This document shows, one piece after another, positions 6,553 to 32,072 of a stretch of 36,622 bases of DNA. The translations under genes and the position numbers were made by a program. Origin of the DNA: a virus. Positions within the stretch are counted from its first letter, which is position 1. Each line of letters starts with the position of its first letter. The stretch covers positions 1 through 36,622 of the IMG/VR virus record IMGVR_UViG_3300045806_000024; one strand, given 5' to 3'. The notes below the pieces were generated by a model. It saw only the letters and a list, made by a program, of their open reading frames with translations. It was not told the origin of the DNA and did no database searches.

Positions 6553-8155
6553 TCCTAATGAAGTTGTTTGGGATGCAGAAACTCCAACTGCGCCTACAAC
6601 AAAAATAAATCCTGCTGAAGTTAAGTGGGATGAACCTGTTCAGCCAGTGTCAACAAAGCCCGATGCAAAGAAGTACATGCAAGAGCAGTTTAAAAATGTT
6701 GGAAAGCCAGACCCTATTTCTCAAGCATTGATGCATATCGGAAGCAGTATTTTCGCAAAACCGGCTTCTGAAATTGCTGGACTGTCTGCTATGGGAACTG
6801 ATATTGCATCTGGCGATGTAAAAAACAGCAAAGCAAAAGAATTTCAAGATTATGTCAGAAACAAATTAACCTATGAACCAGAAACAAAAGCAGGTGAAGT
6901 TGCGTCTAATGTAGCAGGACTTCCAGGTAAAGCAGTTGATTGGGCTTCTGGAAAACTGACTTCTGGATTAAAAGATCATCCAACAATTCAGGCCGGCGCA
7001 AAAGAGACTTTGAATCAGCTTGCAAATTTCATTGGATTAAAGGGTGGTAAATCACTTAAAGAAAATCCAAAGTTTTCTGATGCATCTGTTCAAGCTGCTG
7101 CCGATGCTGCCAAAGTTAAAAATAATCAGGTTTCTGATGTGAATCGTATTCGTCAACAATCTGCTGATGTTGGTTATCAAGTTCCATCGAATCAGGCAAA
7201 AGCATCACTGGTTAATCACCTGAAAGAAATAGTAACTGGTGGTGCCAAAAAATCAGAAGGAAAAGCGTCTGAAAAGAACGCTGAAGTAACCGATAATTTG
7301 GTTCGTAAAACTCTAGGAATGGATGAAAATATTCCATTAACACCTGCCAATTTACAGACTTTTATCACTGAAAAAGGCAAGATAAATAACGAATTGGAAC
7401 AGTTTCAAGGTACATTCGGCGCAACACCTGAATACCGTCAAGCAGTTGAATCAGTTAAAAAACACGCTGCCGAGCTTGAATCTCTTGAAACAACAAAAGA
7501 TGTTGCCAAAGAAATTCAAAAATCAGTTAAAGATGCTGATCAACTGGACTTTTCACCCAAAAAAGCAACACTTTTGATTGAGCAATTGCGGTCTAACTCT
7601 GCCAAGAATAAATCATCAAATCTTGAACTCAGCAAAGCACAGAAAACATTGGCTGTTGAATTGGAAAAAATGGTTACTGAGAATCTGAATGCAAAAGGTG
7701 CGTCTGATTTGGCTCAACGGTACAAAGATTCAAGAGAAAAAATAGCACAAGCATTCACGGTAAAAAGCAATCTGGATGCATCAACCGGCCACGTTAACGC
7801 AAAAGGCTTGTTCGATGATCTGAACTCTGGAAAGATGGTTGGCGGTGAAATGCGGAAGGCGGCTGAATTCGCCGGTATGTTTCCAAGATCAGCACAGAAG
7901 CCCAAAGACATATCAAGTATGCCAGCAATCAGTGGTCAGGATTTGGTTGGCGCTTATCTAAGCCCCGTAGGGCTTGCCAAAGCTGCCGCCAAGCCGATTA
8001 TGCATCTTGGAAGTACCAAAGCACCACAACCACTTGCTTTCAAGCCACCTGCCACGCAAGCAGCATTAAACCAGATATTGAAACAGCCTGGTCTTGATCC
8101 AGCAATTGTTACTCTTTTGAGCCAGAAGTTAAAACAGAAGGATGAAAAAAAGTAA
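6542..8155 (+). CDS. Internal virion protein with N-terminal repeat motif
   Basis: 537 residues if started at ATG 6542 (GGAAG about 8 nt upstream); an ATG at 6527 in the same frame would add five residues. The start overlaps the end of the previous gene. The N terminus repeats a short motif twice (DPNEVVWDAETP and NPAEVKWDEPVQ), a pattern I associate with phage virion proteins, followed by a Lys/Ala-rich helical body. No catalytic motif was seen. Third of three long helical proteins in a row, so probably part of the ejected core complex. Confidence 0.6.
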   Translation: MPIDPNEVVWDAETPTAPTTKINPAEVKWDEPVQPVSTKPDAKKYMQEQFKNVGKPDPISQALMHIGSSIFAKPASEIAGLSAMGTDIASGDVKNSKAKEFQDYVRNKLTYEPETKAGEVASNVAGLPGKAVDWASGKLTSGLKDHPTIQAGAKETLNQLANFIGLKGGKSLKENPKFSDASVQAAADAAKVKNNQVSDVNRIRQQSADVGYQVPSNQAKASLVNHLKEIVTGGAKKSEGKASEKNAEVTDNLVRKTLGMDENIPLTPANLQTFITEKGKINNELEQFQGTFGATPEYRQAVESVKKHAAELESLETTKDVAKEIQKSVKDADQLDFSPKKATLLIEQLRSNSAKNKSSNLELSKAQKTLAVELEKMVTENLNAKGASDLAQRYKDSREKIAQAFTVKSNLDASTGHVNAKGLFDDLNSGKMVGGEMRKAAEFAGMFPRSAQKPKDISSMPAISGQDLVGAYLSPVGLAKAAAKPIMHLGSTKAPQPLAFKPPATQAALNQILKQPGLDPAIVTLLSQKLKQKDEKK

Positions 8156-8364
8156 TGGCAACCAAATCATCATCAAAAGTGAATCCAGAGTTAGAAAAAC
8201 TGCTGGCCGAACTGTTAAAAGAAGCAAAAAGCAAGGGGACTGTCGAAAAACCGGCCATGTCATTGACAGATAAGATGAAAATCATTGACAGGGTTATCAA
8301 AGTGGAGGCAATTAAGGCTAAAATGAGCGAAGATTCATATGGATCGGGGTTTTCCGAAGAATAA
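8155..8364 (+). CDS. Small Lys/Glu-rich protein of unknown function
   Basis: 69 residues, starting at a TAATG overlap with the previous stop, so translationally coupled. Highly charged and helical (KSSSKVNPELEKLLAELLKE), no membrane segment, no cysteines. I do not recognise it. Position suggests a small virion or assembly factor. Confidence 0.6.
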   Translation: MATKSSSKVNPELEKLLAELLKEAKSKGTVEKPAMSLTDKMKIIDRVIKVEAIKAKMSEDSYGSGFSEE

Positions 8365-8381
8365 CCAAGAGGGGCTTAAAG

Positions 8382-8642
8382 ATGGATTCCAAACAAATAC
8401 AAGTTTTAATGCTGTACATTCAAACCGGTTTAAGAGTTTTGTCGTCAAGGTTGGTGTTGTTGTTGACGTTGTTCATGGTTTTTGGGTTGTTTTGCTGGTG
8501 CATGTACGATCCGACCTACAACCGAATTGGCTGTGTCACACTGTTTGCATTATTGGTTTATCTGCCTGTGATCAAGGTAGATCAGAAAGAAGCAAGTTCT
8601 CGGGCTATCATCAATCCGAATCAGGAGGTTCAAAATGAGTAA
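8382..8642 (+). CDS. Small membrane protein
   Basis: 86 residues with an AGAGGGG Shine-Dalgarno. Two adjacent hydrophobic segments (about residues 23-42, LVLLLTLFMVFGLFCWCMY, and 50-63, GCVTLFALLVYLPV) form a hairpin, with a charged tail. The stop overlaps the next start. It might be a holin-like or virion-associated membrane protein, but it lies far from the lysis cassette. Function unknown. Confidence 0.65.
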   Translation: MDSKQIQVLMLYIQTGLRVLSSRLVLLLTLFMVFGLFCWCMYDPTYNRIGCVTLFALLVYLPVIKVDQKEASSRAIINPNQEVQNE

Positions 8643-8883
8643 GAGTAACCAAGTTAAAGATGACATATTCAGTGGGCAGCATAAATCTGCGCCTGAAATG
8701 GGCAATCAGGTCGATAACAAAGAAGAGTGGTTTCGTCCTGAACCTTGGAAGCAGGGTCAGGTTCCCGGAGTTCCGAAGGGTAGTGGTTTCAATCCTGTTT
8801 ATTTCGCCGGTAAAACCAATCCTTTTAAACATGCTGAAGTAACGGATAACTTCAAAGTTTTTGATAAAGGACCGAAAAAATGA
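8635..8883 (+). CDS. Small hydrophilic protein of unknown function
   Basis: 82 residues preceded by an excellent Shine-Dalgarno (CAGGAGG) and overlapping both neighbours. Hydrophilic, with W/F/P-rich central segments (EEWFRPEPWKQGQVPGVPKG) and little predicted helix. It resembles in style the 59-residue protein at 33118-33297: a short, basic, Pro-containing tail protein. Unknown function, probably a minor structural component. Confidence 0.6.
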   Translation: MSKSNQVKDDIFSGQHKSAPEMGNQVDNKEEWFRPEPWKQGQVPGVPKGSGFNPVYFAGKTNPFKHAEVTDNFKVFDKGPKK

Positions 8884-9158
8884 ACGGAAACTACGCCCAC
8901 ATAGCAGCAAATGCAACGGTTCCAATTTGCAATCACTCATGCACTCTGATTAATGTGACTATCAATAATTTAGGAACAACTGGTAACACCGTCACCCTGT
9001 ACGATACGGCCTCTGGTACTGCAACAGGTAACATTATTGCGGTTATCGGAACAACGGCAACAATTGGCGTGATCAATTTTCAGTGCTCTTGTTTGCTTGG
9101 GTTGACTGCTGTGATGGGAACAGGGGTAGCTGGTGATATAACTATTGTTTTTTCATAG
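8880..9158 (+). CDS. Small beta-rich virion-type protein, paralogue of the next gene's C terminus
   Basis: 92 residues, ATGA overlap with the gene upstream, AAAGGA Shine-Dalgarno. The whole chain aligns by eye with the last about 87 residues of the next protein: Y-x-H-I-A, then V-T-(I/V)-N-x-L-G-T, then TLYD/TIYD, then G-L-T and a final DIT(I)V strand. This is a recurrent short beta-sandwich-like module in phage genomes. Likely a surface or tail-associated decoration; exact role unknown. Confidence 0.65.
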   Translation: MNGNYAHIAANATVPICNHSCTLINVTINNLGTTGNTVTLYDTASGTATGNIIAVIGTTATIGVINFQCSCLLGLTAVMGTGVAGDITIVFS

Positions 9159-22567: not shown

Positions 22568-22770
22568 TATTTCAATCTCCTGAAAAGTTCGTTCGGCTTA
22601 ACGGGTTCTGGTTGCTTTGTCGCGGACGGCACTACTTCGCACTTTACTGGCTCTTTAGCTCGTGGAACCAATGTCCTGTAAATTCCGTAAGACAAAAGAA
22701 AGGCCACGCACAGAATGCAGTACAAAAAAACTGCGTAGTATATTTTTGACAGTGTGTCTAACTCTTTCAT
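22567..22770 (-). CDS. Small single-pass membrane protein
   Basis: 67 residues with AAGG upstream. One transmembrane helix (about residues 10-31, IYYAVFLYCILCVAFLLSYGIY), then a Pro/Lys-rich cytoplasmic or periplasmic tail. Overlaps both neighbours by a few bases. Unknown function. Confidence 0.65.
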   Translation of the reverse strand: MKELDTLSKIYYAVFLYCILCVAFLLSYGIYRTLVPRAKEPVKCEVVPSATKQPEPVKPNELFRRLK

Positions 22771-23354
22771 TTTTTCACCTTTTCAGCGTGGTTTTTGCAC
22801 ATAATCATCAATGGTTCTTTCCATGATTTCCAGAAAAGACGAGCGCCAGTCTCCATTGCGCGGATTTCGTCATCTGTGAAATTTTGCCATTGTTCATGTG
22901 TATGTCGTTGGCAACCAATACGTAAATAGCCATCCGTAATTAAAACAGGCCATGTTAAGCCAGATATTTTAATAGGCTGAATCGTTATGGTTTCATCTGC
23001 CAGATTTGCGCCTGCCAGATATGCGTCTGCCAGATTTGCGCCTGCCAGATATGCGTCTGCCAGATTTGCGCCTGCCAGATATGCGTCTGCCAGATTTGCG
23101 CCTGCCAGATTTGCGCCTGCCAGATATGCGTCTGCCAGATTTGCGCCTGCCAGATATGCGTCTGCCAGATTTGCGCCTGCCAGATATGCGTCTGCCAGAT
23201 ATGCGTCTGCCAGATTTGCGCCTGCCAGATATGCGTCTGCCAGATTTGCGCGTGCTTTAACGGCCATTTCCAGAGTTATACGCAAACTGTTTTCTTGGCA
23301 ATCGTGCGAGAACAAAACAGAGCCATTAAAACGGTGTTTGATTTCTATTAACAT
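22767..23354 (-). CDS. Pentapeptide-repeat protein
   Basis: 195 residues, AGGAGAG Shine-Dalgarno. Residues about 35-120 are an uninterrupted run of pentapeptides A-(N/Y)-L-A-(D/G), which fold as a right-handed quadrilateral beta helix. The tail (WPVLITDGYLRIGCQRHTHEQW) has a separate domain seen at the end of other phage pentapeptide proteins. Some family members mimic DNA or inhibit gyrase; whether this one does is unknown. The repeat DNA is almost invariant (see the repeat entry). Confidence 0.85.
   Translation of the reverse strand: MLIEIKHRFNGSVLFSHDCQENSLRITLEMAVKARANLADAYLAGANLADAYLADAYLAGANLADAYLAGANLADAYLAGANLAGANLADAYLAGANLADAYLAGANLADAYLAGANLADETITIQPIKISGLTWPVLITDGYLRIGCQRHTHEQWQNFTDDEIRAMETGARLFWKSWKEPLMIMCKNHAEKVKK
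22996..23250. repeat. 17 tandem 15-bp units coding for the pentapeptides
   Basis: Seventeen units of the form YCTGCCAGATWTGCG (plus strand), with variation at only two positions: T/C at position 1 and T/A at position 11. The two common types alternate, with exceptions at units 8 and 14. Lack of silent drift suggests recent expansion or ongoing unequal recombination, always in frame. Confidence 0.95.
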
Positions 23355-23494
23355 TTCGGTTCTCTCCTAAAGATTAAAAAATAGGCTTCTTCGAATGACA
23401 GGCCAATATTTCGAAGATAGCGATTGTGGGCGTAAGTTCCCATTTGTTTGCGCTGCTTGGCAACAAGTGCCTCGGTGCTTGGTAGGATGGTCAT
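23348..23494 (-). CDS. Small early protein (48 aa)
   Basis: ATG 23494 sits one base from the upstream stop with GGAG spaced 7 nt; the 48-residue product begins MTILPSTEALVAKQRKQMGT and contains YAHNRYLRNIGLSFEEAYF. Its stop lies seven bases into the pentapeptide gene. Well supported by its ribosome-binding site and tight packing. Unknown function. Confidence 0.65.
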   Translation of the reverse strand: MTILPSTEALVAKQRKQMGTYAHNRYLRNIGLSFEEAYFLIFRREPKC

Positions 23495-23991: not shown

Positions 23992-24021
23992 TTGACAGCT
24001 GCATCCAGGGTGAATTATTCT
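23992..24021 (+). promoter_or_regulatory. Rightward promoter for the structured leader and 178-aa gene
   Basis: TTGACA (23992-23997) and TATTCT (24016-24021) separated by 18 nt. Transcription would begin near 24028, just before the first hairpin of the leader. Divergent from the leftward promoter about 80 bp away. Confidence 0.65.
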
Positions 24022-24032
24022 TTAATCGTTTT

Positions 24033-24172
24033 CCGGGTGGCTCCCGGCGTTGCTAAACTGGTGAGCACCTCGATTCTTTAGGGTGGCTTCAAGTAATTCT
24101 TTACGTCCTTAACCAGGTTAGCAGCGTAAATAATTATGTGCAGCCAGCGCAGCCACCCTAAAGCACCGAGGT
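24033..24172 (+). promoter_or_regulatory. Multi-state structured leader RNA that sequesters the ribosome-binding site
   Basis: Hairpin 1: CCGGG (24033-24037) with CCCGG (24043-24047). Long stem: 24067-24088 with 24151-24172, 13 bp plus 6 bp around a 3-nt internal loop. Nested stem: 24094-24105 with 24125-24136, 11 of 12 paired. Competing pairing: 24048-24062 with 24112-24126, 13 Watson-Crick pairs and one G-U of 15, which crosses the long stem. GGGTGGCT occurs at both 24035 and 24081, so AGCCACCC at 24151 has two partners. The long stem contains GAGG, the ribosome-binding site of the gene at 24179, and is followed by seven Ts like a terminator. Confidence 0.7.
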
Positions 24173-24178
24173 TTTTTT

Positions 24179-24715
24179 ATGTCTAACGCATCGAAAACAG
24201 CAGGAAATACCGGCCCGGCAATGGATACTTTTGCTAAGGTGTATACAGCAAAGGTATACATTCAAAAGTACACCAAACAGCAGCTAATCAGAGGTGCAAA
24301 GCATCGCGCAGCTAATGCCAGGGACAGAATCAACCAGGCTATAGAATTGACGCTTCCTGATTTCGTTCGTAATCTTGACAGCCAGGATCAGAAGTTTTCA
24401 TTCGCTGCCTACTTTCGCCAGGCGTTCCCACTTCAAAATCCCGTTTATCTTCGCAGGGCTTACGGCGCATATATTAAAGCCAGACTAGAAACCCTATTTG
24501 GTCAATCAAATCAAGCTGTTAATCGCTTCAAATCCTTCTGTGCTGCCATTCGCGCAGCTATCAAAAAGCAACCCATTCACGCAATTATTAAGGATTGGCT
24601 TCGTTTAGGCGTCCCAGTTTCCTGTCGTGAAGATCGCCATTCTCTTACAAATATCGGTTGCATCTGGAATAAAACCTTTAAATTGTGGGAAATTCCCGTT
24701 AAAAACCATGTTTAA
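24179..24715 (+). CDS. Basic protein of unknown function behind a structured leader
   Basis: 178 residues, start ATG 24179, GAGG seven nt upstream. Rich in Lys, Arg, Ala and Gln; no membrane segment and no cysteine cluster. Helical N-terminal half (IQKYTKQQLIRGAKHRAANA), a central YLRRAYGAYIKARLETLFGQ, and a C-terminal WLRLGVPVSCREDRHS and IGCIWNKTFKLWEIPV that looks like a short beta end. I do not recognise the family. It is alone between the divergent promoters and the terminase region, so a regulator, RNA-binding protein or replication initiator are all possible. Confidence 0.7.
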   Translation: MSNASKTAGNTGPAMDTFAKVYTAKVYIQKYTKQQLIRGAKHRAANARDRINQAIELTLPDFVRNLDSQDQKFSFAAYFRQAFPLQNPVYLRRAYGAYIKARLETLFGQSNQAVNRFKSFCAAIRAAIKKQPIHAIIKDWLRLGVPVSCREDRHSLTNIGCIWNKTFKLWEIPVKNHV

Positions 24716-24727
24716 CTCTTAAGCAGT

Positions 24728-24859
24728 CCCGAAGGGTTGATCTTTCGTTTTATTCGGCAGCCGGCGATACCTCAGAAGGTTTTACGGTAGGACAGGCAGT
24801 TGAAGGCGTAACCGCCACTGATAGAAAGTCAAATGCGGTTGATGCCGTATCTTTCCTAT
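24728..24859 (+). ncRNA. Candidate structured RNA: run of five stem-loops
   Basis: Consecutive hairpins after the 178-aa gene: CCC-GAA-GGG (24728-24736); CGG-CAG-CCG (24755-24763); ACCT-CAGA-AGGT (24769-24780); CAGT and GGCG with CGCC and ACTG (24797-24820, TAAC loop, 4-nt bulge); and ATAGAAAG ... ATGCGG with CCGTAT ... CTTTCCTAT (24821-24859). No start codon opens the frame here. Could be a separate RNA, a structured 3' end or a replication or packaging signal. No known RNA family recognised. Confidence 0.4.
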
Positions 24860-24933
24860 GAAGCCCAGCATCAAAGCACATCTCATATTCCCATTCATAA
24901 AGACACGATCTGATAGTTAATTAATATCTAAAG

Positions 24934-24968
24934 TGACACTTTTTGTCAGTATGTGACAATTTTTGTCA
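24934..24968. promoter_or_regulatory. Two tandem palindromic operator-like sites, 20-bp period
   Basis: TGACA-N5-TGTCA at 24934-24948 and again at 24954-24968, inside a 20-bp direct repeat that also shares GTGACA-N2-TTTTGTCAGT. Two helical turns apart, so two dimers would bind the same face. The second TGTCA also contributes a TTGTCA (-35-like) with AAATAT 17 nt on. Confidence 0.65.
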
Positions 24969-24979
24969 GTTTTAGTTCT

Positions 24980-25401
24980 TTCTGGAAATATTTATGAGGG
25001 TCGTATGAGGCGAATATGTAACAAACTGCCCCTTCAATGAGTTTAATGAATAGTTAGGGGTTGTTGATTGTGCTTAGGTCTGTTGTGTCTCGGGGTTGTT
25101 TTTGAGGTTTGGGTATTCATCATCAGGTGTTTTTATGTATTTTGATCTTAAGTTATTGGTTGTCAGATGTTTTAGTTATTAAGACGTTGCTCTGAGATTG
25201 CTACTGATTTTGCAGTGGCTCTAGGTACTTGGACTATTAATTTGGACTTGAGACTGAGTTTGAAGGGTGCCGCCACATTCCCCCCCGCCAAAAAAAAATC
25301 GTATATTTGAGAATAATTTGAATGTTTTTGGGGTATAAAATATAAAAAAATGATTTTTGATGGGTGTTTGATAAACAAAATGGTGCTTGAAAGGGCTGAA
25401 T
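24980..25401. other. Noncoding G/T-rich control region before the terminase genes
   Basis: No credible gene. The plus strand is strikingly rich in G and T between about 25050 and 25260. An interrupted hairpin pairs AACAA/CCCCT (25020-25033) with AGGGG/TTGTT (25056-25065). A C7-GCC-A9 tract lies at 25280-25298, and a TATAAA box (25334-25339) sits in an AT-rich stretch before the 71-aa gene. Lying just upstream of the terminase block, it is a candidate packaging site or origin; this is inference. Confidence 0.45.
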
Positions 25402-31505: not shown

Positions 31506-32018
31506 ATGGACCCGCTTACACAAGCAGAACTAAAAAAACATTTCTGGTACACCGAAACAACAGGTGTATTCATCCGAAAAGAAAAAACACATGGTAGGGC
31601 AGGAATTTATCCAAAAGGTAGTCCGGTTGGATGGCTTCGTGGCGGGTATATCATCATAAAATTAAATAAAAAAGAATATAAAGCACATCAGCTTGCTTGG
31701 CTTTATGTGCATGGTGAATTTCCAAACGCTCCTTTGGATCATGAAAATACAATAGGTTTCGATAATAAAATTAAAAATCTAAGGATACTAACTCCCGCAC
31801 AAAACTCACAAAATATGTCAAGGCCACATAAAGACGGTAAATCTGGATTTTTAGGCGTTTCTTATATAAAATTGAAAAAAATATATAGGGCCGAAATAAT
31901 GACAAATGGAAAGCGTCTTTATATCGGAGAGTTTAAAACGGCAGAAGCAGCAGGATCGGCGTACTTAGAAACAAAGAAAAAGCTACACAAATTTGCGTTC
32001 GTAGCTCAGTCGGATTAG
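31506..32018 (+). CDS. HNH homing-type endonuclease with AP2-like DNA-binding domain
   Basis: 170 residues, TAGGGGA Shine-Dalgarno. HNH core: HQLAWLYVHGEFPNAPLDHE and FDNKIKNLRIL with the D-H, D-N and N-L-R signature. AP2-like C-terminal module: GFLGVSYIKLKKIYRAEIMT and LYIGEFKTAEAAGSAYLETK. Such free-standing enzymes are mobile in phage genomes and cut intron- or insert-less alleles. The last 8 codons and the stop lie inside the tRNA-Arg gene, so the two overlap by 24 nt. Confidence 0.85.
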   Translation: MDPLTQAELKKHFWYTETTGVFIRKEKTHGRAGIYPKGSPVGWLRGGYIIIKLNKKEYKAHQLAWLYVHGEFPNAPLDHENTIGFDNKIKNLRILTPAQNSQNMSRPHKDGKSGFLGVSYIKLKKIYRAEIMTNGKRLYIGEFKTAEAAGSAYLETKKKLHKFAFVAQSD

Positions 32019-32072
32019 AGCAATACCCTTCTAAGGTATAGGCCGCTGGTTCGATTCCAGCCGAACGCACCA
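31995..32072 (+). tRNA. tRNA-Arg (anticodon UCU)
   Basis: All four arms form: 7-bp acceptor GCGTTCG/CGAACGC; D stem GCTC/GAGC with a GG-containing loop; anticodon stem ATACC/GGTAT with loop CTTCTAA (anticodon TCT, reading AGA); T stem GCTGG/CCAGC with loop TTCGATT; encoded CCA end at 32070-32072. Phages often carry this isoacceptor to supply AGA decoding. Its first 24 nt are also codons of the HNH gene. Confidence 0.95.

Follow-up and report, generated by a model that had tools for sequence, protein, structure and literature searches.

A conserved double-pseudoknot RNA with a promoter and a terminator-like stem in metagenomic phages, and its possible role as a gate for exchangeable genes

Introduction

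In phage lambda, the strong promoter PR′ gives rise to a short terminated RNA (6S RNA, ending at tR′) en route to the late genes. Riboswitches and attenuators that act through a terminator or by sequestering the Shine-Dalgarno (SD) sequence are structured 5′ leaders, whose terminal stem serves as terminator and as lock of the ribosome-binding site (RBS). The pRNA of phage phi29 has a three-way junction, a terminal helix, and complementary loops, and is encoded near the packaging genes. Type III toxin-antitoxin (TA) loci consist of one promoter, a pseudoknotted RNA, a Rho-independent terminator, and an ORF (PMC5086642).

Here we analyzed a viral DNA of 36,622 nt, which is one complete IMG/VR record (IMGVR_UViG_3300045806_000024; hereafter the window). 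An earlier note on this DNA had described a switch-like leader RNA upstream of a gene for a 178-aa protein. The region encodes a conserved RNA of ca. 130–160 nt with a double pseudoknot, a three-way junction of the helices P3, P4, and P5, and a terminal stem followed by a T-run.

Results

Structure of the RNA region in the window

The RNA region folded far better than its dinucleotide shuffles (MFE z = −4.7), and all four pairings listed in the earlier note were present in the sequence (Table 1). The long terminal stem (P3), said to contain GAGG and to be followed by seven Ts, formed 20 of 22 possible Watson-Crick pairs, with T7 next. The pairing that crosses it (the pseudoknot) comprised 13 Watson-Crick pairs, one G-U pair, and one A-G mismatch, and the arms of the nested stem (P4) formed 11 of 12 pairs. 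The fourth pairing, between GGGTGGCT (24035–24042) and AGCCACCC (24151–24158), was a perfect 8-mer.

Table 1 Features of the RNA locus and its surroundings in the window.
Feature	Position	Strand	Remark
Promoter TTGACA (23992–23997), 18-nt spacer, TATTCT (24016–24021)	23992..24021	+	Consensus scan
P1 hairpin CCGGG-UGGCU-CCCGG	24033..24047	+	5′ end of the inferred transcript; covaries in L143/L235
P1 loop UGGCU	24038..24042	+	Putative kiss with the P5 loop
Pseudoknot, 5′ strand	24048..24062	+	Partner 24112–24126; in the P1–P3 linker
P3 terminal stem, 5′ strand	24067..24088	+	Partner 24151–24172
P4 hairpin	24094..24136	+	Arms 24094–24105/24125–24136; loop carries the pseudoknot 3′ strand
Pseudoknot, 3′ strand	24112..24126	+	Inside the P4 loop
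P5 hairpin GUGC-AGCCA-GCGC	24138..24150	+	Kissing loop AGCCA, 24142–24146
P3 terminal stem, 3′ strand	24151..24172	+	Terminator arm; buries the SD
SD, GAGG	24168..24171	+	Part of the P3 3′ arm; 7-nt distance to the ATG at 24179
T7 run	24172..24178	+	Terminator tract and SD–ATG spacer
178-aa cargo ORF P0001	24179..24715	+	Coding codon bias
Terminator-like hairpin	24730..24747	+	Directly after the cargo ORF; consensus scan only

Homologues of the RNA

A syntenic phage, L005, was reached using terminase as a handle. Between its early and late genes, L005 has the same series of elements, from promoter and 5′ hairpin through the crossing pairing, the long and the nested stem, and a small third hairpin to the T-run, and its RNA is 58% identical to that of the window. 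A descriptor search for T-runs that follow a long stem with an interior pairing to the upstream linker, together with pattern scans, added L137, L143, L229, and L235. The six distinct copies (the window, L005, L137, L143, L229, and L235) are all metagenomic; L225 is identical to L229 and was counted with it as one. L143 and L235 are 77% identical, and the RNA sequence identity is 45–62% for most pairs of copies. In all six, the locus is flanked by leftward early genes and rightward late genes including terminase, and the first late gene lies 1.0–1.4 kb from the RNA on the same strand. We scored 4,392 T-runs across 2.15 Mb of DNA from related phages; the combined stem-plus-pseudoknot score was reached only by the homologous loci and one repeat array.

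Several other candidates and searches yielded no further copy. L200, which scored in the descriptor search, looks like a repeat array without the promoter and was rejected. The box patterns CAAGTAAT...CCCTAAAG gave chance matches except for L005, a P1-based pattern matched L235 but also the 4.5S RNA of L231 (identified by eye), and a looser pattern gave no additional homologue. No match to the RNA was found in the terminase relatives L139, L140, L141, L222, and L224. Direct DNA-similarity searches with the RNA region found nothing, and at the DNA level the RNA was absent from the named phages searched. No copy was detected in 369 bacterial genomes of one class, which is weak evidence because this search had no positive control.

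Covariation and strand preference

In a purely sequence-based alignment of the window and L005, 91.5% of the cells paired, and 11 pairs were altered on both sides (six in P3, three in the pseudoknot, and one each in P4 and P5). None of 500 shuffles reached 11, and slid controls gave 0–2. Between L143 and L235, nine pairs were altered on both sides, a number reached by 1 of 500 shuffles, and two of the nine were in the pseudoknot. The crossing pairing thus showed compensatory changes in L005 and in L143/L235. We then built covariance models from disjoint sequence pairs: R1 from the window and L005, and R2 from L143 and L235. R1 recovered L137, L143, L235, and L229 at 21.8–28.5 bits, the best chance match being 10.3. 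In 0.9 Mb, R2 recovered the window (E = 5.6e-7), L229/L225 (4e-11), and L137 (7e-4) and nothing unrelated, these E-values being rough; L005 was not significantly recovered by R2. Between them, the two models recovered all the other copies. The earlier note had proposed that homologues losing the stems or the compensatory changes would speak against its RNA; this comparison was run, and the RNA survived it.

These data also bear on whether the inverted repeats act as DNA and not as RNA, as sites for an initiator (an option raised in the earlier note) or for a repressor. The repeats are long and intergenic, flanked by early and late genes, as such a site might be. However, crossing and loop-loop pairings are meaningless in duplex DNA, the promoter at a fixed distance and the T-run lie on one strand, G-U pairs exceed A-C pairs by 15 to 6, and the + strand of every cross-detected copy gave a better fit to the model than the − strand did. 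We regard a DNA site as barely credible.

One fold rather than exclusive stems

The P1 loop contains UGGCU in five of six homologues. In each of the six, its sequence complements that of the P5 loop (window, UGGCU/AGCCA; L005, covarying UGACG/CGUCA). The summed score of this loop-loop kiss exceeded all 2,000 loop shuffles, although the copies are not fully independent owing to shared ancestry. From this comparison, the P1–P5 kiss appears to be a conserved contact that the earlier note overlooked; the conserved partner of the P1 loop is AGCCA in P5, not AGCCACCC.

The earlier note read its set of exclusive pairings as the mark of a regulated leader (attenuator, riboswitch, or pseudoknot). The GGGTGGCT:AGCCACCC 8-mer, which occurs in only 1% of shuffles, speaks for a bistable riboswitch or attenuator in the window. 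However, this pairing, the only candidate alternative stem and the sole truly exclusive one, is absent in the five relatives. P4 and the pseudoknot, which had been described as competitors, share only two bases (24125–24126) and therefore nest rather than compete, and both covary. Furthermore, no sequence-conserved ligand core was found beyond the paired UGGCU loop. The comparative evidence points to one compact pseudoknotted fold rather than a set of mutually exclusive stems, and a bistable switch is very improbable.

The helix lengths suggest how this fold might be arranged. Across the copies, the linker pairs 7–15 bases with the P4 loop, and the pseudoknot stacked on P4 amounts to 18–26 bp, similar to P3 (18–22 bp). 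P1, the kiss, and P5 together amount to 12–15 bp, approximately the length of P4, and the linkers are 1–8 nt. Because these lengths match, the RNA could pack as a closed bundle of parallel rods. Such rods would hold the two P3 strands together and might offset the ca. 60-nt "loop" of the terminator.

Promoter and extent of the transcript

TTGACA sits 33–41 nt upstream of P1 in all six homologues; therefore, the transcript is predicted to start at or just before P1. The earlier note had named a transcription start downstream of 24090 as an observation against its leader; a scan of the + strand of the window from 24021 to the end of the ORF revealed no promoter-like site. In all six copies, the base of P3 is followed by T7 or a longer T-run. 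This is the form of an intrinsic terminator, here a candidate terminator with a loop of ca. 60 nt; a standard terminator scan (loops of 3–8) gave P3 and the T-run no score. With the promoter just before P1 and the T-run at the end, the predicted transcript approximately equals the fold.

The buried RBS and the cargo genes

In the window, L143, L229, and L235, the T-run leads directly to an ATG, and an SD (GAGG, GGGGA, AAGGG, and GAGGA, respectively) lies in the P3 3′ arm. This arrangement of an RBS-sequestering leader is absent in L005 and L137. The mean P(unpaired) of the SD arm was 0.22 in the full leader and 0.47 without the 5′ half, and the arm was mostly paired in the full leaders of all six copies. 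The core of the earlier description, a structured, covarying RNA behind a promoter that ends in a terminator-like stem burying an RBS, is thereby borne out.

The ORFs behind the T-run in the window, L143, L229, and L235 (178, 65, 79, and 37 aa, respectively) are mutually unrelated, and their codon bias (z = 5.2, 3.4, 2.9, and 1.6, respectively) is coding-like. L005 has no ORF behind its T-run, and the ORF in L137 has no SD-ATG arrangement and is not convincingly coding (codon bias z = 0.6). Because the RNA persists in L005 and L137 without a coding ORF, it is not just a leader of the 178-aa gene. None of the cargo ORFs matched a protein family, and no relatives of P0001 were found beyond noise in viral contigs, phages, plasmids, Pfam, and PADLOC. 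One weak match, of P0001 to RmrT, was seen in PADLOC (E = 0.0012 over 64 residues). A single-sequence structure model of P0001 was unusable (pLDDT 42.5). Separately, strong further hairpins (z = −2.7) were seen in L235 (5555–5690) right after the 37-aa, membrane-like cargo ORF.

The order of parts matches that described for type III TA loci (PMC5086642), in which the RNA would be the antitoxin and the ORF behind the terminator the toxin, all under one promoter. In contrast to this expectation, we found no tandem RNA repeats, no toxin family in Pfam or PADLOC, and no ToxN/CptN/TenpN-type endoribonuclease, the RmrT match being the only and weak one; the ORFs are also unrelated between phages and missing in two. 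A type III TA-like unit is highly unlikely.

Gate, released RNA, or late-gene leader

The explanation we favor, with confidence a little above even, is a new phage RNA family composed of promoter, knotted RNA, and terminator, which would form a default-off gate before a cargo gene that is optional and can be exchanged. Transcription would mostly end at the T-run, setting the knotted RNA free. In transcripts that read through, the 18–22-bp P3 would still hide the RBS, so that the cargo would be made only when P3 fails to close or gets opened, possibly owing to slow folding, to an RNA-binding protein of phage or host, or to an RNase III cut in the long duplex. The loop of ca. 60 nt, which is unusual for an intrinsic terminator, was counted against this gate. 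Additionally, since L005 lacks an ORF and L137 lacks a convincing one, gating of cargo cannot be the sole function of the RNA.

A possible alternative, to which we give clearly less than even weight, is that the terminated knotted RNA is itself a trans-acting product, for example one that binds a host protein or serves as an anti-defense decoy, and that the cargo ORFs are hitchhikers on read-through and on the G-rich terminator arm. The predicted transcript approximately equals the fold in six of six copies, the RNA persists in L005 (no ORF) and L137 (non-coding ORF), and its shape is kept while its sequence drifts to 45–62% identity, as expected of an RNA that works by its shape. On the other hand, if expression of the next gene did not matter, T7-ATG with an SD before unrelated ORFs in four phages would be difficult to account for. 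Since the RNA is retained in two phages that lack a cargo ORF, we take a function of the released RNA seriously as a rival, and the gate is held to the confidence stated above. A combined reading is offered tentatively and is less likely than not: a new class of free-standing phage RNA, with a double-pseudoknot three-rod fold that is kept in shape but not in sequence, would act in trans, for instance on a host protein or defense factor, while its terminator and RBS provide a docking site for swapped, unrelated small cargo genes.

Every copy has the first late gene 1.0–1.4 kb downstream on its own strand, which would also suit a late-gene leader like lambda 6S RNA between PR′ and tR′; a constitutive promoter would then give a short terminated RNA until an antitermination factor extends transcription into the terminase operon. 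However, L143 (2219), L235 (6515), and L229 (7200) have TTGACA promoters immediately ahead of the late genes, making a late-gene leader less likely. The window has a terminator-like hairpin behind its cargo ORF, and no Q-like gene was identified. A late-gene leader is improbable.

Surroundings of the locus

In each phage, the RNA/cargo unit and the late genes are separated by ca. 0.7–1.4 kb of DNA that seems not to code for protein (24716–25386 in the window; 5514–6485 in L005). Within it, 24799–24896 of the window and 5870–5968 of L005 are 78% identical and carry small conserved hairpins; this block is perhaps an origin or a second RNA. Operator-like paired GTGAC...GTCA(C/G) motifs occur twice in the window, in tandem behind the cargo ORF (24933–24970), and twice in L143, ahead of the RNA promoter (701–768). 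In L137 (3531–3606) and L143 (3607–3704), ARAGORN predicted an ochre-suppressor-like tRNA-Stop gene (anticodon TTA) ahead of the late genes; the window (31995–32072) and L005 have tRNA-Arg(TCT) instead. L229 has a 401-aa ORF of TnpB-type look (by eye) between the RNA unit and terminase (7924–9129), and a pentapeptide-repeat-like ORF (ANLADAYLAG repeats) lies near the start of the leftward early operon in the window (22767–23370).

Discussion

Few structured RNAs are known in phages; this study contributes a family that has two pseudoknots and is supported by covariation, and marks a conserved promoter-RNA-terminator cassette with a different orphan gene behind the RNA in each cargo-bearing phage. 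If the RNA gates these genes, it would point the way to early cargo proteins that change fast; if it works in trans, it would be a new phage effector RNA. The Rfam 15 search gave no match in the window, L137, and L143 except tRNA, and permissive Rfam scans of the window and L235 copies gave only sub-threshold microRNA chance matches or nothing. In the open literature searched, we found no description of such an RNA, and only general reviews.

The locus resembles ToxIN, CptIN, and TenpIN in combining a promoter, a pseudoknotted RNA, an intrinsic terminator, and an ORF in one unit (PMC5086642). It differs from them in having a single large double-pseudoknot RNA instead of tandem repeats, ORFs that are unrelated, dispensable, and of no toxin family, and an SD in the terminator arm. 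With PR′/6S RNA/tR′ of lambda it shares a strong promoter and a short, predicted terminated RNA upstream of the late genes; unlike the 6S leader, it has a conserved knotted fold and an optional cargo gene, and its late genes often have their own nearby promoter. As in SD-sequestering riboswitches and attenuators, the terminal stem of the leader is a putative terminator and RBS lock. In contrast to them, the junction lies within the terminator stem, there is no conserved alternative stem or ligand core, and the downstream genes are unrelated.

The likeness to phi29 pRNA extends to the three-way junction, the terminal helix, the complementary loops, and the location near packaging genes. In contrast to pRNA, a pseudoknot runs through P4, the phage has a large terminase, and there is no sequence or Rfam match; as far as tested, the loops found here are complementary within one molecule. 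The loops of pRNA pair between molecules in a ring that binds the packaging motor; the loop complementarity of the present RNA would suit such a pairing and an intramolecular kiss equally. In kind, the RNA is a structured phage leader or noncoding RNA, and as a family and a fold it is new.
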